From Streptomyces niger (lineage in GTDB: Bacteria > Actinomycetota > Actinomycetes > Streptomycetales > Streptomycetaceae): a DNA stretch of 18,518 nt. Below, piece by piece: positions 1,284 through 18,415 of the stretch. Under the pieces are notes generated by a model. It ran no database searches and was not told where the DNA came from. It saw nothing but the letters and a program-made list of their open reading frames with translations. Position numbers and translations under genes: made by a program. The stretch lies in contig NZ_JOFQ01000046.1 in assembly GCF_000718305.1 (NCBI RefSeq), forward strand, positions 1 through 18,518, written 5' to 3'. How positions within the stretch are numbered: position 1 is the stretch's first letter; each line of letters opens with the position of its first letter.

Positions 1284-2141
1284 ATGAGGCAACGCCGCTA
1301 CCCATCGGACACCAGTGACGCGGAATGGCTGGTCATCGCGCCTCTGCTCCCGCCGCCGGCCTGGACGACGCCGCGCGGCGGGCGCCCCGAACGCTGGCCG
1401 CGCCGGGAGATCTTCGACGCGATCCGGTATGTCGTCTCCGAGGGCTGCCGCTGGCGGGCCCTGCCCGCGGACTCCCCTCCGCACCAGACGGTTTACGGGT
1501 TCTTCCGCCGCTGGACGAAGTCCGGGGTCCTGGAGCTGGTCCGCGACCAGCTGCGTCGGCGGGTGCGCTGCCTGGAGGGCGTCTCCCCGAACGGCGTGGC
1601 CTCGGTCATCGACAGCCAGTCGGTCAAGGCCGCGGAGACCGTGGCCAAGTCCTCGCGCGGTTTCGATCCCGGGGAACGCATCAACGGCCGCAAACGGCAC
1701 GTGGTCGTGGACTTGGAAGGGCTTCCGCTGCTGATCAGCGTCACCCCCGCCGACGTTCACGACACCCGGGCGGCCCGCATCGCCCTGACCCGACTGCGGC
1801 GGGCCCACCCGGAGATCACGATCGTGTGGGCCGACCGCGCCTACGCCGGCACCCTCATCACTTGGGCGAGAACGTCCCTGAACCTGACTGTCAAGACCGT
1901 CGCCCGTCCCAAGGACGCGCACGGCTTCGTCCTGCTGCCGCGGCGCTGGATCGTCGAAAGATCGATCAGCTGGTGGATGCACGCCCGGCGGCTGGTCAGG
2001 GACTACGAACGCCTGCCCGCCCACGCCGAGGCGATGCTCAACACCGCTGTCATCACGCTGATGACCCGCCGTCTGACCCGGCCCCGCTGCTTTCCCAGTG
2101 CCGCGGCGCCCCGGCCCGCCGAACTCATCCAGGCCGCGTGA
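1284..2141 (+). CDS. IS5-family transposase (intact, single frame)
   Basis: A 285-residue DDE transposase that cuts and joins the ends of its insertion sequence. The N-terminal DUF4096-type region (YPSDTSDAEWLVIAPLLPPP, then CRWRALPADSPPHQTVY) is followed by the catalytic core. The likely triad is D110 (IDSQSVKAAE), D184 (WADRAYAG) and E225 (WIVERSISWW). 'INGRKRHVVVD' and 'LTVKTVARPKD' are typical of Streptomyces IS5 members. No frameshift or stop interrupts it. The start ATG follows GAGGCGG at very short spacing. I could not identify convincing terminal inverted repeats between 1253-1283 and 2142-2300, so the element's borders are undefined. The left copy of the 47-bp repeat at 2160-2206 lies just behind the stop codon and might be connected with the element. 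Confidence 0.9.
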   Translation: MRQRRYPSDTSDAEWLVIAPLLPPPAWTTPRGGRPERWPRREIFDAIRYVVSEGCRWRALPADSPPHQTVYGFFRRWTKSGVLELVRDQLRRRVRCLEGVSPNGVASVIDSQSVKAAETVAKSSRGFDPGERINGRKRHVVVDLEGLPLLISVTPADVHDTRAARIALTRLRRAHPEITIVWADRAYAGTLITWARTSLNLTVKTVARPKDAHGFVLLPRRWIVERSISWWMHARRLVRDYERLPAHAEAMLNTAVITLMTRRLTRPRCFPSAAAPRPAELIQAA

Positions 2142-8858: not shown

Positions 8859-8860
8859 TC
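8846..8860 (-). terminator. Small hairpin at the end of the ABC permease gene
   Basis: GAGAGC / GCTCTC forms a perfect six-bp stem around TGG, overlapping the permease stop codon (8859-8861). It could end transcription of the ABC operon, though the stem is short and the loop tight. Confidence 0.3.
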
Positions 8861-9647
8861 AGCGTTTGGTGGTGCCGTTGAAGAGGGTGCGCGACCAGGC
8901 GTAACCGACGAGGGCGATGCCAGCGCACCAGGCGAGCGAGATCCAGCCGTCGTTGCCGATCGCCGAGCCGGTCAGCAGGCCGCGCAGGGTCTCGGTCATC
9001 GGCGTGAAGGGCTGGTTCTCGGCGAACCACCGCAGGCCCGGGGCCATCGTGCCGGCCGGCACGAACGCGGAGCCGAGGAACGGCAGGAACTGGATGAGCA
9101 GCGGCTTGTTGCTCGCGGACTCCACCGTCTTGGAGATCAGGCCGAGCGCCGCCGACAGCCAGGCCACGGCGAACGCGATGGCCGTGATCAGGCCGGCCGC
9201 CGCCAGCCACTCGACCGGGGTCGCTGACGGGCGGAAGCCGAGCGCGAGGGCCACGGCCACGACCAGGATCAGGCTCACCAATGTGGTGAGAACACTGCCG
9301 ACGACATGCCCCGTCATGAACGACGAACGGGTGATGTTCATGGTGCGGAATCGGTTGACGATGCCCTCGGTCATGTCCTGACAGACCGCGATCGAGGTCG
9401 ACATGGCTCCGGCGGCCACGCCCATGATGATGACGCCGGGCGTCAGATACTCCAGATACGCCGACCGGCCGCCATTGCCGGGGAGCCCGGCGCCGATCGA
9501 GTCCCCGAAGGCGTACACGAAGAGCAGCAGCATCAGGATGGGCATCATGGCTGGGCCCAACGACACGGCCGGGTAGCGGAGCGCGTGCTTGATGTTGCGC
9601 CGCAGCATCGTCATCGAGTCGTGCACGGCGTAGGTGAGGGTACTCAT
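8859..9647 (-). CDS. ABC-2 type exporter permease (DrrB-like)
   Basis: A 262-residue membrane subunit of a two-gene ABC-2 exporter. Six hydrophobic segments are visible. The first (AVSLGPAMMPILMLLLFVYA) follows an amphipathic N-terminus, and LTPGVIIMGVAAGAMSTSIA leads into the conserved 'DMTEGIVNRFRTMNITRSS' coupling helix. Later come SVLTTLVSLILVVAVALAL and the 'FLPFLGSAFVPAGTMAPGLRWFAENQPFTP' region, whose ENQPFTP is a hallmark of DrrB-type proteins. The ATG overlaps the stop of the ATPase gene in an ATGA (9644-9647), so the two are translationally coupled. Substrate unknown: DrrAB pumps daunorubicin, but relatives vary widely. Confidence 0.9.
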   Translation of the reverse strand: MSTLTYAVHDSMTMLRRNIKHALRYPAVSLGPAMMPILMLLLFVYAFGDSIGAGLPGNGGRSAYLEYLTPGVIIMGVAAGAMSTSIAVCQDMTEGIVNRFRTMNITRSSFMTGHVVGSVLTTLVSLILVVAVALALGFRPSATPVEWLAAAGLITAIAFAVAWLSAALGLISKTVESASNKPLLIQFLPFLGSAFVPAGTMAPGLRWFAENQPFTPMTETLRGLLTGSAIGNDGWISLAWCAGIALVGYAWSRTLFNGTTKR

Positions 9648-10672
9648 CTCTGGGTCTCCTTGACGTGAAGAGCGGCGCCCGTGCCGCCGTCGCCGGTCAG
9701 GGCGAGGAACACGTCGTCGAGGTCGGGGGTGTGCACGGAGAAGTCGGCGGCGCGCACGCCGGCGGCGTCGAGCCGGTCGAACAGGGTGCGCAGGGCGGCG
9801 AGGTCACCGTCGCCCGCGATGCGCAGGGTGAGTTCCTCGTCGTCACGGAGTGCGCCGACTGCGCCGGGGAAGGCGGCGGCCGCCCGCTCGTACTCGTCCG
9901 TCTCGTTGAACCGCAGGCGTACGTGGCTGCCGGGAATCTGCGCCTTGAGTTCGTCGGAGGTGCCCTCGGCGACGATCCGGCCGCCGTCGAGCACGGCGAT
10001 CCGGTCCGCCAACTGGTCGGCCTCTTCGAGGTATTGGGTGGTGAGGAAGATGGTGACACCGCCCGCGACCAGCGAGCGCACGGTCTCCCACATGGTGCGT
10101 CGGCTGCGCGGGTCGAGCCCGGTCGTCGGCTCGTCCAGGAAGATCACCCGGGGATCGCCGACCAGTGTCATGGCGATGTCGAGCCGGCGCCGCATACCGC
10201 CGGAGAAGGTCGCGGCCCGGTTGCCCGCGACGTCCGCGATATCGAACCGCTCAAGCAGTTCCTTCGCGCGCTTCCTCCCTTCACGCTTGCCGAGTCGCAG
10301 CAGATCGGCCACGAGGAGCAGGTTCTCCTCGGCAGTGAGCAGGTCGTCGAGCGCGGCGAACTGCCCGGTGACGCCGATCGCGGCACGCACTCCGGCGGGA
10401 GAGGTCGCGACGTCGTGCCCGGCGACCTGGGCCTGCCCGCCGTCTGCGGCGATGAGCGTGGACAGGATCTGCACGGTGGTGGTCTTGCCGGCGCCGTTCG
10501 GGCCGAGCAGTGCGAACACGGACCCGGCCGGAATGCGCAGGTCGATGCCGTCGAGCACGGTCTTGTCGCCGTACGACTTGCGCAGACCGACGGCGGAGAT
10601 GGCATCGGCGCCGACGCCGGGAGACTGCGGGCCGCCGTTTCGAGTTGTTGTGGGCATGACAGACGAAGGCAT
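9644..10672 (-). CDS. ABC exporter ATPase (DrrA-like)
   Basis: A 342-residue ATP-binding subunit that drives the adjacent permease. Walker A is GPNGAGKTT (57-65), the Q-loop TGQFAALD starts at 102, the signature FSGGMRRRLDIA is at 156-167 and Walker B VIFLDEPTTGLD at 176-187. The switch position reads TTQYLEEAD, with Gln for the usual His, as is normal in the DrrA group. The C-terminal ~90 residues are the DrrA-type extension, ending DFSVHTPDLDDVFLALTG. The start at 10672 has GGGAGG about six bases before it. A longer frame from 10840 would translate the 33-bp tandem repeats and is rejected. Confidence 0.9.
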   Translation of the reverse strand: MPSSVMPTTTRNGGPQSPGVGADAISAVGLRKSYGDKTVLDGIDLRIPAGSVFALLGPNGAGKTTTVQILSTLIAADGGQAQVAGHDVATSPAGVRAAIGVTGQFAALDDLLTAEENLLLVADLLRLGKREGRKRAKELLERFDIADVAGNRAATFSGGMRRRLDIAMTLVGDPRVIFLDEPTTGLDPRSRRTMWETVRSLVAGGVTIFLTTQYLEEADQLADRIAVLDGGRIVAEGTSDELKAQIPGSHVRLRFNETDEYERAAAAFPGAVGALRDDEELTLRIAGDGDLAALRTLFDRLDAAGVRAADFSVHTPDLDDVFLALTGDGGTGAALHVKETQR

Positions 10673-10927: not shown

Positions 10928-10975
10928 CCGACGCTCAGAGTCGGACGGCTCAGAATTGGGCGGCTCAGAATTGGG
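10928..10975. repeat. 15-bp duplication over the DUF4097 stop codon
   Basis: CGGCTCAGAATTGGG occurs twice in tandem (10946-10960, 10961-10975). The DUF4097 stop codon (10965-10967) is in the second copy, so the gene's last codons and stop are duplicated downstream. Beyond it CCGAC / GTCGG (10928-10944) could fold into a weak hairpin. Confidence 0.75.
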
Positions 10976-11807
10976 CGCGACGCACGTCGATGTTGCCCCA
11001 GCGAGTACGGGCGCGGACCTTGACGATCTCCTCCGTCTCCTCGGGGGCTTCGGCGTCGGCGAGTGCGTTGCTTACCTGCCCGCGCTCGGTACTGACGTCG
11101 AGCCAGGCGGCGGTGCCCGGGCGGATGCCGATCTCGATGAGACCGTAAGAGGTCTCCAACTGAACGGTGCCGCGCGCTGCTTCGGCGACGCGCAGGGCGC
11201 CACCGGCAGTGGTGGCGGCGACCGAGCCCTCGGCACGCGTGATGTCGATGTCACCATGGGCACTGCTCACCCGAAGGTCACCGGTCGCGACGCCGACGGT
11301 CGTGGTGCCGTGCGAGTTCTTCAGCACCGCGGAGCCGTCGACGGTACCGACGCGCAGGCTGCCGGTGCTGGAGGTGATTTCGGCGTTGCCCTCGATCCGG
11401 TCGACGATGATCGAGCCATGGGAGGTGGTCAACCGGAGCGGCCCTGTCGCATCGAAGCGCACGTCACCGGTCGAGGCCTTCACGCGGACCTCGCCGAGCC
11501 GGCCCTCGCCGAGTACCTGGGCCCAGGCGCCGGTCATGTCGACGCTCGACCCCGTAGGCAGTTCGACCGTCACGTCAACGAGGCCGGAGGGCCCGATGAA
11601 GCGGCGCTCCTTCGTCCTGATGGTCAGTACGCCACTCGCGTACGTGACCTCGGTCTGCTCGGCGGCCTGCACGTCCTTGTCCCGCTTCGGGTTGCCCGGA
11701 CGTACCTCGACGACGGTGTCGGGGCGGTCGCTCGCGGCAAAGCGGATGGCCCCGGCCCCTACGTGGGCGGTGACCGAAATCGGTTCGGGAGTGTCGAACG
11801 AAGGCAT
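10965..11807 (-). CDS. DUF4097 family beta-strand repeat protein
   Basis: A 280-residue protein of the DUF4097 (putative adhesin) family, predicted to form a right-handed beta-helix from short repeated strands. The repeats are easy to see: VRVKASTGDVRFDATG, LRLTTSHGSIIVDRIEG, AEITSSTGSLRVGTVDG, LKNSHGTTTVGVATG, LRVSSAHGDIDITRAEG and so on, each with T/S-x-x-G-x-I/V. There is no signal peptide or membrane segment, so in this setting it is probably cytoplasmic despite the adhesin name. The start at 11807 has GAGGA about ten bases before it. It lies 82 bases behind the RHH gene and ahead of an ABC exporter, an order I recall from other Streptomyces, so a shared role in one module is likely. The biochemical role is unknown. 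Confidence 0.85.
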   Translation of the reverse strand: MPSFDTPEPISVTAHVGAGAIRFAASDRPDTVVEVRPGNPKRDKDVQAAEQTEVTYASGVLTIRTKERRFIGPSGLVDVTVELPTGSSVDMTGAWAQVLGEGRLGEVRVKASTGDVRFDATGPLRLTTSHGSIIVDRIEGNAEITSSTGSLRVGTVDGSAVLKNSHGTTTVGVATGDLRVSSAHGDIDITRAEGSVAATTAGGALRVAEAARGTVQLETSYGLIEIGIRPGTAAWLDVSTERGQVSNALADAEAPEETEEIVKVRARTRWGNIDVRRAQF

Positions 11808-11889: not shown

Positions 11890-12414
11890 TCAGCGCACCC
11901 AGCCTGTGAAGCCCTGTCCGAGGGTGCGGGTCTTCTGCGTCGGCTGCGGCCGCGCGCCGCCGTCGACCGCGGCCGACACCGCGCGCACCAGCCAGGCGTT
12001 GACCGACAGGCCCTCGCGGCTCGCAGCCTCCTCGGCACGCGCCTTGAGGTGGGCCGGCAGGCGCAGATTGACGCGGGCGGTGCCGCCCTCGTCGCCGTCG
12101 GCGGGCGCCGGCGCCGGCGCCGCGAGCGGCTCGACGGGCGCGGCGGCAGTCTCCGTGGCGCCACCGTCGGTGGGCGGCGGTGTGACCACGAAGTCGGGGT
12201 CGAGCCCGCGCAGTCGTACGTCGACCGAGCCGGGGGCGAGCTCACGGGTGATCTCACCCATCGCAGCGGAGAGCACGTTGAGCATGGTCAGCCGGGTCGC
12301 CGACTCCAGCGGAGCGGTGAGCCGCTCGGCCAGCTCGCGAGCATCGTCCCCGCCGGCTTCGGCGGCCACCGCGAGTTCACGGCGGAGGTTGTCGACATAC
12401 GGGGTGAGGTCCAT
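11890..12414 (-). CDS. Ribbon-helix-helix (HicB-like) regulator
   Basis: A 174-residue protein with two parts. The N-terminal ~75 residues are helical (MDLTPYVDNLRRELAVAAEA, LLESATRL-like, SAAMGEITRELAPG), followed by a Pro/Ala-rich linker. Next comes an RHH domain at roughly 112-155: ARVNLRLPAHLKARAEEAAS, then REGLSVNAWLVRAVSAAVD, where R-V-N-L-R-L is the DNA-reading beta strand. Such proteins are often labelled HicB antitoxin, but no HicA toxin gene is present on either side. The start at 12414 has no strong RBS. The upstream region carries an array of TGGCGCCA boxes, which this protein very likely binds. It heads a minus-strand series with DUF4097 and the ABC genes. Confidence 0.75.
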   Translation of the reverse strand: MDLTPYVDNLRRELAVAAEAGGDDARELAERLTAPLESATRLTMLNVLSAAMGEITRELAPGSVDVRLRGLDPDFVVTPPPTDGGATETAAAPVEPLAAPAPAPADGDEGGTARVNLRLPAHLKARAEEAASREGLSVNAWLVRAVSAAVDGGARPQPTQKTRTLGQGFTGWVR

Positions 12415-12424
12415 GACGCCATGA

Positions 12425-12613
12425 TGGCACCAAAGTGGCGCCACAAGCAAGAGGGGATGGCACCTTGCATGAACGGACTGCGTCGAGAGTTCATGTAGAG
12501 ACGCCCTGACCTGCAGAGACGCACGGAATTCGATCCGGGGCCACCATGGCGCCATGCACGCGCGAGCGAAGGACATGGCGCCACGCGGTGCCAGATAGCG
12601 CCATGCGGCGCCA
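12425..12613. promoter_or_regulatory. Array of TGGCGCCA-type boxes before the RHH gene
   Basis: Eight-base boxes close to the palindrome TGGCGCCA start at 12425 (TGGCACCA), 12436 (TGGCGCCA), 12458 (TGGCACCT), 12547 (TGGCGCCA, within CATGGCGCCATG), 12576 (TGGCGCCA), 12586 (CGGTGCCA), 12596 (TAGCGCCA) and 12606 (CGGCGCCA). The first three step by 11 and 22 bases, and the last four by exactly 10. Such same-face spacing is typical of operators filled cooperatively by RHH dimers. The array probably mediates autoregulation of the downstream RHH gene and its module. Confidence 0.65.
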
Positions 12614-12747
12614 CCCAAAACGCACAGCTGGTCGAGGTGGTCACGCCGTTCGAGGACACCCACTTCGGGACCAGGCTACTGACCGTCCGCGACCCCGACG
12701 GTCGGCTGTGGAACCTCCAGGCTCCTGCCGGGAAAGAACCGCAATGA
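12613..12747 (+). pseudogene. VOC/glyoxalase-fold protein, C-terminal remnant
   Basis: The frame ending at TGA 12745-12747 reads AQLVEVVTPFEDTHFGTRLL, TVRDPDGRLWNLQAPAG. The 'G-T-R-x-L-T-V-R-D-P-D-G-R-x-W' pattern is the last beta-alpha-beta unit of vicinal-oxygen-chelate proteins such as bleomycin-resistance or glyoxalase relatives. The N-terminal part is absent: the frame runs into the last TGGCGCCA-type boxes upstream, and no start codon with RBS is present. I take it as a relic left by a rearrangement. Confidence 0.5.
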
Positions 12748-12758
12748 GAGGCGGCACC

Positions 12759-13344
12759 ATGAGGGGCGAGGTCACCGGACGGCCGGACAACACTGCGGTG
12801 CGTTGCGCAACTTTGGCGAGCGATGCATGTCCGACTCGATGCAGCACCGCATGTGCTGGCGGACGAGGTCGGGCTGCAGCTGGTGGCCCCCGATGCCGAT
12901 TGGCGACGCCGTCCGGACATGGACCCGGCGGCCACCAGCGCCTGTCGGGCGGCAATGGTGGCCCGTGCTTGCTTCATCGAGGACCTGGTCACGGAGCAGA
13001 CGGAGCAGGTCGAGCTCGGTGTCACCCAGTACGTCATCCTGGGGGCCGGCCTGGACACGTTCGCCCAACGCAGGCCGGAGGTTGCCTCCCGCTTGCAGCT
13101 CTTTGAGGTCGATCAGCCCGGCACCCAGGCATGGAAGCGCCGGCGCCTGGTGGAGCTCGGCTACGGCATCCCCGAGTGGCTGCATCTGGTGCCGGTTGAC
13201 TTCGAGGCGGGCGAGTCGTGGTGGGATCAGCTCGCCGCTGCGGGATTCGATCCGCGCAGTCCGGCGATCATCGTGTCCACCGGCGTCAGCATGTACCTCA
13301 CCGAGGACGCAACCAGTGCCACTCTGCGCCAGATCGCTGCCCTA
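12759..13344 (+). pseudogene. SAM-dependent methyltransferase (LCM/PPM1-like), frameshifted and cut
   Basis: The gene begins at ATG 12759 (MRGEVTGRPDNTAVR). One extra base in the 'GCAACTTTGG' stretch (about 12807-12816) shifts the frame. Without it the protein runs on as CALWRAMHVRLDAAPHVLAD, EVGLQLVAPDADWRRRPDMD. The rest carries motif I of this class I family (TQYVILGAGLDTFAQRRPEV), the acidic strand end LQLFEVDQPGTQAWKRRRL and IIVSTGVSMYLTEDATSATL. The frame ends at about LRQIAAL where an IS begins (13342-13345). A start at ATG 12823 would avoid the frameshift but lose conserved N-terminal residues. The C-terminal ~90 residues are not found beyond the IS. Family members methylate diverse acids, including polyketides; no substrate can be named. 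Confidence 0.75.
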
Positions 13345-13360
13345 GGTCGTGTCCGCAAAG

Positions 13361-14110
13361 TCATGGCAGCCAAAGTCGTAGGCAGGCGAGGGTGACCATG
13401 GCCTGGTAGTGGCGGGCGCGTTTGTCGTAGCGGGTGGCCATCCCGCCGCCGGATGCGGCCGTTGATCTGGTCGATCCGCTCCGGGATGGCGGCCTTGATG
13501 CCGCGGCCGCGCAGGTAGGCGCGGATCTTCGTGGACGAGTAGCCCTTGTCCGCCGCGACGAGAGCGGGGCGGGTGCGAGGGCGGCCCGGCCCGCACCGCT
13601 GGATGCGGATGCGGGCCATCACCGCCTCGAACTGGGTGCAGTCATTGACGTTGCCGCCGGTGAGGGTGAAGGCCAACGGGCGGCCCCGGCCGTCGCACGC
13701 GAGGTGGATTTTGGTGGTCAGTCCGCCGCGGGAGCGGCCGATCGCCTCGCCGGGCCGGTCCTGCCCTTTTTTCGGGCGCCGGCGGCATGCTGGTGGGCCC
13801 GCACGGTGGTGGAGTCGACACACACGATCGACCAGTCGACATCGCCAACAGCGTCGCAGTGCTGCTGGACGTGGGCCAGCAGACGGTCCCAGGTGCCGTC
13901 GGCCGACCAGCGGCGGAAGCGCTCGTAGATTGTTTTCCACGGGCCGTAGCGTTCCGGCAGGTCCCGCCAGGCCGCCCCGGTGGACAGCTTCCACAAGATC
14001 CCGTTCATCACCTGCCGGCGGTCCCGCACCGGCCGCCCCATCCGCGGCGGAGCCAGCATCGGCTCGATCACCGCCCATGCCTGATCAGTCAGCTCATGAC
14101 GACGCACCAC
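13361..14110 (-). pseudogene. IS5-family transposase with internal deletion
   Basis: The first frame (GTG at 14110 or 14107) reads VVRRHELTDQAWAVIEPMLA, CVDSTTVRAHQHAAGARKKG with the first catalytic Asp. A -1 slip leads to RSRRGL-type sequence (SRGGLTTKIHLACDGRGRPL, VAADKGYSSTKIRAYLRGRG) with the second Asp. After 'RIDQINGRIRR' the family sequence jumps, in another frame, to MATRYDKRARHYQAMVTLAC and the stop at 13361-13363. The missing piece, by comparison with the transposase at 17540-18391, is about 35 residues (GSRGGRPPAFDKxxY...VERCFNRLKQWRG) and contains the third catalytic residue. The protein cannot be active. Confidence 0.85.
13766..13772 (-). promoter_or_regulatory. A-AAA-AAG slippery site for -1 frameshifting
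   Basis: On the minus strand the heptamer AAAAAAG is followed by GG, exactly where the OrfA frame (AGARKKG) gives way to the OrfB frame (RPKKGQDRPGEA) through a -1 slip. This is the canonical programmed frameshift site of IS427-like elements, still present in a dead copy. Confidence 0.7.
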
Positions 14111-17523: not shown

Positions 17524-18415
17524 GGCTGTCGTCAATGTGTCACGCCCACATCAGGAGCGAGGCGAGGGTGACAGCTGCCTGGTAGGACTCGGCGGTCTTG
17601 TCGTAGCGGGTCGCGATACCCCGCCACTGCTTCAGGCGGTTGAAGCAGCGTTCCACCATGTTGCGCTGCTTGTAGAACTGCTTGTCGAAGGCCGGCGGGC
17701 GTCCGCCCCGGCTGCCGCGCCGGAGCCGGTTGCGGACCTGGTCGGCCCGCTCGGGGATGGTGTGGCTGATACTCCGGCGTCGCAGCCAGGCCCGGATGGC
17801 CCTGGAGCTGTAGCCCTTGTCGCCCAGGACATGGGCGGGCCGCACGCGGGGCCGTCCCGGGCCGATGCGGGGCACCCGGATCGCCTCCATCACGGCGGTG
17901 AACTGGGTACAGTCGCTGGTGTTGCCGCCCGTGACTGTGAAGGCGAGCGGACGCCCGAAGGCATCGCAGACCAGGTGAATCTTGCTGGTCAGACCACCCC
18001 GGGAGCGTCCGAGGCCGGGGCTGCGGGGCCCCCCTTTTCGGGCCCCGGCGGCATGCTGGTGGGCGCGGATGACGGTGGAGTCGACCGATACCAGCCAGTC
18101 GACCTCTCCCCCCGCGTCCGCCCGGGCAACGGCGGCATGGAGCATCCGCTCAAAGGTGCCGGCCAGGGCCCACCGGCGAAAGCGGGTGTGCAGCGTGTGC
18201 CAGGGGCCGTACCGCTCGGGCACGTCCCGCCAAGCCGTGCCCGTCCGGAACTTCCACACGATCCCGTTGAGCACGGTGCGGTCATCCAACCGCTTCCGCC
18301 CCCGCAACGACACGGGCAGCAGTGGCCGGACGAACTCCCACTCTGCATCGGACAGTTCATGGCGACGTACCACCCAACCATGATCCACCACTCAAGATCA
18401 ATTGGAGACACGGCC
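17524..18415 (-). mobile_element. IS5-family (IS427-like) element, apparently complete
   Basis: The right end, read inward, is GGCCGTGTCTCCAATTG (18415-18399); the left end is GGCTGTCGTCAATG (17524-17537). They agree when a two-base gap is allowed, so they are imperfect terminal repeats. The element of about 892 bp holds one transposase gene. CTAG occurs at the right border (18415-18418) but not at the left, so no target duplication is seen. Confidence 0.7.
17540..18391 (-). CDS. IS5-family transposase, OrfA and OrfB in one frame
   Basis: A 283-residue DDE transposase. The N-terminal part reads WVVRRHELSDAEWEFVRPLL, WRDVPERYGPWHTLHTRFRR. The catalytic residues are Asp in WLVSVDSTVIRAHQHAAG, Asp in HVLGDKGYSSRAIRAW, and Glu in NMVERCFNRLKQWRG. 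Relatives usually need a -1 slip in the ARK(K)G region; here the minus-strand AAAAGGGGGG (at about 18032-18041) is read straight through as RKGGPRSPGLGRS, giving one continuous frame. The start ATG is at 18391; GTG codons at WVVRR are alternatives. It looks functional and could act on related ends nearby. Confidence 0.9.
   Translation of the reverse strand: MVDHGWVVRRHELSDAEWEFVRPLLPVSLRGRKRLDDRTVLNGIVWKFRTGTAWRDVPERYGPWHTLHTRFRRWALAGTFERMLHAAVARADAGGEVDWLVSVDSTVIRAHQHAAGARKGGPRSPGLGRSRGGLTSKIHLVCDAFGRPLAFTVTGGNTSDCTQFTAVMEAIRVPRIGPGRPRVRPAHVLGDKGYSSRAIRAWLRRRSISHTIPERADQVRNRLRRGSRGGRPPAFDKQFYKQRNMVERCFNRLKQWRGIATRYDKTAESYQAAVTLASLLMWA

Follow-up and report, generated by a model that had tools for sequence, protein, structure and literature searches.

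Several ribbon-helix-helix (RHH) regulators bind arrays of short DNA sites. The met boxes recognized by MetJ abut at 8 bp, and the heptads of Omega (pSM19035), many of which are bound together by cooperative RHH dimers, follow one another in tandem at 7 bp, without helical phasing and in the company of plasmid copy and partition genes. Arc of phage P22, an autorepressor, uses two half-sites, on which dimers are placed 11 bp apart (centre to centre) and contact each other. A fourth group, the HicB antitoxins, is encoded by genes that adjoin hicA.

The accessible text of Ravi et al. (2024; PMC11237479) describes a Toastrack/ABC-type operon of actinobacteria that carries an RHH transcription factor replacing the GntR one; no operator, promoter, or correspondence between ribbon and box was found in that text. 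The locus analyzed here likewise places an RHH factor in an actinobacterial Toastrack/ABC-type operon. Among the matches listed by title in the open literature (subscription journals and preprints lie outside this scope), nothing relevant was found on TGGCGCCA or on TGACGTCA with Streptomyces. The same was true of TGGCGCCA paired with a Streptomyces repressor and of HicB paired with DUF4097 or with an autoregulated Streptomyces ABC transporter, and the combination of RHH, leaderless, and actinobacteria yielded a toxin-antitoxin paper alone.

Box arrays upstream of an RHH gene

An 18,518-bp stretch of DNA from Streptomyces niger (contig NZ_JOFQ01000046.1; hereafter, the window) was analyzed. 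The 300 bp upstream of the start codon of its RHH gene (A of the ATG at 12414, minus strand) contain nine boxes that match TGGYRCCA with at most one mismatch, at offsets of -7, -18, -29, -51, -140, -169, -179, -189, and -199 from that A, which has index 0 (Table 1). Read on the plus strand, the boxes at 12414, 12425, and 12436 are separated by 11-bp steps, the box at 12458 (TGGCACCT) lies 22 bp beyond, and the box at 12547 stands apart from the rest. The four distal boxes (12576, TGGCGCCA; 12586, CGGTGCCA; 12596, TAGCGCCA; 12606, CGGCGCCA) are spaced by exactly 10 bp. An earlier note on this DNA had reported eight boxes, with exact 10-base steps in the distal set and steps of 11 and 22 in another; when the region was read directly, its positions and both spacings proved right and all eight boxes were present, and the array has a ninth, at 12414 to 12421, outside the interval that it covered.

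Dinucleotide shuffles of the same 300 bp contained a mean of 0.75 boxes (maximum, 5), and at least nine boxes occurred in 0 of 2,000 shuffles. Exact boxes numbered 4, whereas the shuffles contained 0.05 on average (maximum, 2). In the window as a whole, 8-mers resembling TGGCGCCA (at most one mismatch) are not enriched (21 versus 18.0 expected), so the signal resides in the clustering and spacing of the boxes.

Table 1. Features of the RHH locus, in window coordinates
Feature	Position	Strand	Remark
Box C (-7), TGGCGTCA	12414..12421	-	its final A doubles as the start codon's first base (A of the ATG)
Box B (-18), TGGTGCCA	12425..12432	-	
Box A (-29), TGGCGCCA	12436..12443	-	
Box D (-51), AGGTGCCA	12458..12465	-	22 bp from box A
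Lone box (-140)	12547..12554	-	commonest place of the lone box in the best 80 named loci is -128
Four distal boxes, exactly 10 bp apart (-169, -179, -189, -199)	12576..12613	-	
TTTYCGCAGGTCAGGG-like element	12502..12519	-	resembles an element conserved between the arrays in relatives
Predicted -10 hexamer CATCAT (-12..-7)	12421..12426	-	bridges boxes B and C; column profile of the best 80 named loci
Predicted -35 hexamer TTGCTT	12445..12450	-	separated from the -10 by 18 bp
RHH regulator gene, 174 aa	11890..12414	-	Pfam HicB, 21.5 bits (cut-off 21), residues 115-145
DUF4097 (Toastrack) gene	10965..11807	-	usual downstream partner; 40.5 bits
DrrA-like ABC transporter ATPase gene	9644..10669	-	scanned stretch; start codon unfixed
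ABC-2 permease gene	8859..9647	-	

Many proteins of the family carry the database name "toxin-antitoxin system HicB family antitoxin." The protein encoded in the window has a ribbon, RVNLR, at about residues 114 to 118 and also scores below threshold with RHH_5 (16.9; cut-off, 26) and NCBIfam YlcI_YnfO_N (27.2; cut-off, 30). Its AlphaFold model, from which secondary structure alone was taken (mean pLDDT, 58; pTM, 0.28), consists of two N-terminal helices reaching to residue 58, a strand pair and a linker, both of low confidence, and an RHH part at residues 113 to 151 (strand 113-115, helices 121-134 and 138-151), with block pLDDT values of 68 to 78 over residues 121 to 150 and 37 to 47 over residues 101 to 120. 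RHH-type matches in a PDB sequence search were weak (Arc, DUF1778 proteins, and KacA; E, 0.03 to 0.46), and the RHH stretch against the Arc chain gave an E of 0.031. The TAL-repeat proteins that headed this search were rejected as repetitive-helix artefacts; no stretch alone passes an E of 1. Its sequence and the predicted succession of a ribbon strand and two helices place the protein in the RHH (MetJ/Arc) class.

The earlier note had compared the boxes to those bound side by side by MetJ and Omega, a likeness with which the spacing disagrees: the pitch is 11 bp in the proximal set and 10 bp in the distal set, and neither abutting 8-bp boxes nor tandem heptads are found here. MetJ does share with this locus an array of 8-bp palindromic boxes, but no methionine genes are present among the annotated neighbours of the RHH gene. 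The resemblance to Omega lies in the arrays of many short boxes. By the pitches given above, the system appears closer to Arc than to either, as the pitch of about one helical turn between Arc sub-sites agrees with that of the array in the window. Unlike the two half-sites of Arc, however, the arrays here comprise three to nine boxes, include a distal set at 10 bp, and have box C on the start codon. HicB antitoxins are similar in database name and in a marginal Pfam score, but no HicA partner was found among the window proteins scanned, DUF4097 is the usual downstream neighbour, and the RHH part is C-terminal in the model, behind a helical N-terminal region. The layout is widely conserved, and the array is very probably an autoregulatory operator.

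Conservation and genomic distribution

The gene was found in 35 of 61 genomes, namely the window's genome and 60 relatives (E ≤ 1e-8). From a scan of named genomes, the best 80 loci were kept, mostly from Streptomyces, with Kitasatospora and a few others; no two of their upstream regions reach 90% identity in an ungapped comparison over 120 nt, and two weak matches in the window's own genome (L003 and L004) are outside the upstream sets. At the class level, the family is present in 138/394 genomes and 53/137 genera (E ≤ 1e-8), and 60 divergent loci were picked from this list by hand, hence non-randomly, to spread over families. A second profile detected the family in 47 of 396 genomes at the phylum level (E ≤ 1e-6), from which 22 new loci were examined. 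In L247, L249, L251, L252, and L254 there is no box at the start used, and some of these starts are uncertain.

Aligned on the ATG, the best 80 named loci yield the consensus boxes A (TGGCGCCA, -29 to -22), B (TGGTGCCA, -18 to -11), and C (TGGCGTCA, -7 to 0) and a weaker box D at -51, a position occupied exactly in 30/80. With a proximal box scored as 7 of 8 letters of TGRNNYCA within 1 bp of its position, all three boxes were found in 75 of these loci and two in the other 5. Three-box matches were obtained in 0/3,200 in-gene controls and in 38/1,600 upstream-shifted controls, the latter being expected where the distal array sits. The divergent loci possess three boxes in 52/60 cases, two in 7, and none in 1 (controls: in-gene, 2/2,400; shifted, 2/1,200). 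The comparison that the earlier note had proposed, a search of orthologous promoters for boxes with 10- to 11-bp steps, thus came out in its favour.

The two sets keep distinct pitches. In the best 80 named loci, proximal pairs of exact boxes number 48 at 11 bp and 0 at 10 bp, and distal pairs number 39 at 10 bp and 3 at 11 bp. The distal set of Streptomyces-type loci occupies approximately -166 to -228, with the lone box near -128. At least two exact distal boxes (TGRYRYCA) are present in 24/31 loci of relatives but in only 6/60 divergent loci, and this rarity makes the distal array look like an elaboration within the window's order (Streptomycetales). A further, TTTYCGCAGGTCAGGG-like element is conserved between the arrays of Streptomyces-type loci (about -95 to -79 in relatives), as seen in a comparison of the 52 named loci that possess a box close to -128. 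Scored as GCAG[GC]TCA, it occurs within 200 bp upstream in 42 of the best 80 named loci and 0/60 divergent ones, and it is perhaps the site of a second regulator.

Box pairs are nearly confined to RHH genes. The pattern TGGYRCCA-N2/3-TGGYRCCA occurs at five places in the 8.49-Mb genome, of which one is at the window, three are at an RHH paralogue, and one is in a hairpin with 14-bp arms (by eye); the reversed control pattern occurs at none. Across the 61 genomes, 37/41 box-pair places fall in the 300 bp that precede an RHH start, and the reversed pattern, as a chance control, has 9 places. Three of the four off-locus pairs are hairpins (G000:C16, G014, and G016), and one is a real array (G015). 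A perfect box pair is present in 26 of the 35 genomes with the gene and missing from 9; the 26 genomes without the gene include 2 with a pair, both of them hairpins. A stricter promoter pattern matched 23 places in 295 genomes of the genus, with all control columns at 0, and 21 of the matches are followed, at the distance predicted, by the ATG of an RHH gene. This pattern has a 2-base gap after TTGC where most family members have 3, so the 23 matches represent a sub-class and no census, the own-genome match being the paralogue and the window itself being missed.

The other two matches differ. At G015:C1:6563130 (L064 / L280), the same promoter and box array precede a gene for a GtrA-like membrane protein (by eye), and at L262 (G223:C1:3459044), an RHH-type promoter leads into a DUF4097-like operon (by eye) with no RHH gene between them. 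These two exceptions suggest control in trans. Hairpins of the form GGGGCC(T/C)TGGYRCCA plus an inverted copy, distinct from the RHH boxes, were observed in three genomes of the genus (L037, L053, and L058), two of them (L053 and L058) adjoining a MerR-like gene (by eye). The RHH paralogue of the window's genome (G000:C12:208979-209564; L002, L094) is 74% identical and has boxes at -7, -18, -29, -152, and -163; where the window has DUF4097-ABC, the paralogue is followed by a gene resembling those for cytochrome P450 (by eye).

Among named loci of the best 80 that are eligible, with at least 2.4 kb of downstream sequence, a DUF4097 homologue lies downstream in 67/68, an ABC ATPase in 63/68, and a permease in 54/68; the corresponding counts for eligible divergent loci are 50/56, 18/56, and 16/56. 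The RHH-DUF4097 pair is therefore the core, and the transporter is optional. The partner counts agree with the claim of the earlier note that the regulator has no HicA partner, and HicA was not found among the 15 window proteins scanned. On the far side of the array, no family of open reading frames (ORFs) of at least 90 codons is common to more than 7 of 75 loci. Upstream neighbours are thus hardly shared, and the array goes with the RHH unit; the explanation that the distal array serves a divergent gene was rejected on the same count. Three ORFs of the window (1284-2141, 13227-14078, and 17540-18391) encode DDE transposases (all match Pfam DDE_Tnp_1, and two of them contain the IS4/5 domain DUF4096 as well); the ORF at 13227-14078 overlaps the end of a methyltransferase ORF (12823-13395). 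Beside the distal array, a short ORF tail at 12625 to 12744 (plus strand) resembles the C-terminal remnant of a glyoxalase-type protein (by eye; Pfam negative).

Predicted promoter and the ribbon residue

The ATG-aligned best 80 named loci have a near-fixed promoter, with CTTGC at -37 to -33 and a -10 element at -12 to -7 that reads CATGAT (CATCAT in the window). TTGC is found near -36 in 78/80 of them and TTG in 79/80; TTG is also found in 56/60 divergent loci. The -10 pattern [TC]ANNNT is present in 80/80 of the best named loci and is partly forced by the boxes: boxes B and C supply its C, its A, and its final T, which leaves the T at -10 (77%) and the A at -8 (93%) as the sole box-independent letters. 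No Shine-Dalgarno (SD)-like word occurs at -18 to -4 in these 80 and the 60 divergent loci (0/140). The 22 phylum-search loci are poorer, with TTG in 15, [TC]ANNNT in 14, and an SD word in 2. The geometry of the -35 and -10 elements puts the canonical +1 on the A of the ATG. From this placement and the absence of the SD word from 140 loci, we infer that the RHH mRNA is leaderless, with transcription predicted to start on the ATG and the operator lying over the core promoter.

Many divergent loci read TGACGTCA or TGACATCA in place of TGGCGCCA, and the box letter tracks the middle residue of the ribbon, R-x-N/T/S-x-R; like the interleaving of the proximal boxes with the predicted -35 and -10 elements, the overlap of box C with the ATG, and the concentration of the distal set in the window's order among the loci sampled, this point is absent from the earlier note. 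Loci with Asn have G at box position 3 in 286/343 boxes, and loci with Thr or Ser have A in 102/139 (168 of 171 loci counted; L033, L202, and L220, whose ribbons were misread by the text rule, were left out). The TGACGTCA form presumably shares its GACGTC core with the met box AGACGTCT, and we take the Thr/Ser residue to occupy the place of Thr25 in the K-x-T strand of MetJ.

Concordance was scored on a tree of 124 rows, from whose alignment the ribbon columns had been removed and which included 21 of the phylum-search loci (L255 was too short). Eight rows with fewer than two boxes were unscored; 112 of the remaining 116 loci are concordant (57 with Asn and G3/C6 boxes, 55 with Thr/Ser and A3/T6 boxes), and 4 are discordant. 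An earlier 103-row tree gave 50 and 49 concordant loci and 3 discordant ones. The trees took in 12 of the 80 named loci, picked at random. The residue changes 5 times on the 124-row tree (weakly supported) and 2 times on the 103-row tree. On well-supported branches, either tree contains a single independent pair, which makes the sign test uninformative; on all branches, the numbers are five and two. The link between box and ribbon is thus a strong pattern that falls short of proving repeated co-evolution.

A candidate autorepression operator and competing explanations

Given the conservation of the boxes, their positions, their near-exclusivity to RHH genes, and their covariation with the ribbon residue, we consider it likely, with good confidence, that the array is the operator for cooperative autorepression by the RHH protein encoded directly below it. 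One RHH dimer would bind each 8-bp palindromic box, with its ribbon in the major groove. Spaced by 11 bp, the three proximal boxes would all face the same side of the helix and would together span the -35/-10 spacer, the -10 element, and the predicted start site. Neighbouring dimers, one helical turn apart, would touch and cover the promoter up to +1, making the first base of the start codon part of the operator. Occupancy would exclude RNA polymerase, and in this way the regulator would tune both its own expression and that of the DUF4097-ABC operon. In the window's order, the distal array at 10-bp pitch probably adds cooperativity, by spreading or looping, and would sharpen the switch; as a second platform 100 to 230 bp upstream, it might raise the local concentration or close a loop. 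More speculatively, an envelope or substrate signal could release the operator via the N-terminal region or DUF4097. The earlier note's proposal of a cooperative autoregulatory switch and no toxin-antitoxin unit stands as the best reading, in that the operator is at the regulator's own promoter, regulator-specific, cooperative-looking, and outside a toxin-antitoxin context; the binding, repression, and cooperativity it entails, and the leaderless start, are what we infer.

The RHH protein may instead bind the same boxes for activation or dual control, the distal array recruiting polymerase at low occupancy and the proximal boxes repressing at high occupancy. A distal array 100 to 230 bp upstream and a conserved element near -95 in Streptomyces-type loci would suit such an arrangement, and AmrZ, an RHH protein, is described as both activator and repressor. 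We nevertheless regard dual control as rather doubtful, since the widely shared part of the array is the proximal triple over the core promoter and at least two exact distal boxes occur in only a few (6/60) of the divergent loci. It appears very unlikely that the boxes serve a different DNA-binding protein (a global regulator or a nucleoid protein) for which the RHH gene would be a mere target. The further conserved element between the arrays would fit this explanation, and RHH binding to the boxes is itself a prediction; against it, box pairs accompany RHH genes across the 61 genomes, the matches in gene-less genomes are hairpins, and the letters of the boxes vary with the ribbon residue of the RHH protein.

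The database names and a Pfam HicB score just over the cut-off would agree with the operator of a HicB-type antitoxin in a toxin-antitoxin unit. The usual neighbour is DUF4097, however, HicA is absent from the scanned proteins of the window, and a leaderless promoter would leave no space for hicA ahead in the transcript, which renders this explanation highly improbable. Repeats that arose by chance or as structural elements (GC-rich palindromes, hairpins, or terminators) would account for the ordinary frequency of TGGCGCCA-like 8-mers in the window, for the hairpins among the off-locus matches, and for the places matched by the reversed control, but the clustering, the fixed positions, and the conservation across families in the orthologue comparison contradict them, and we give this explanation almost no credence.

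Taken together, the predictions for the autorepression operator may be combined in a broader proposal, which we offer tentatively as somewhat short of probable. The regulator and operator would form an approximately one-to-one pair throughout the actinobacteria, in which operator, -10, and start codon are one unit of 11-bp pitch at a leaderless gene and a single ribbon residue (Asn versus Thr/Ser) sets letters 3 and 6 of every box (TGGCGCCA versus TGACGTCA). The window's order would have added the array of 10-bp pitch, converting autorepression into a switch of two modules that acts cooperatively on a membrane-stress (Toastrack-ABC) operon. If this is true, the many proteins now catalogued as orphan "HicB antitoxins" or as "histidine kinase" would form a large family of self-regulating transcription factors, for which an operator, a predicted start site, and a simple letter code are already at hand. 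The family would offer more than 100 natural regulator-operator pairs for studying how RHH ribbons read DNA and would provide a handle on the signal that controls Toastrack-transporter operons.
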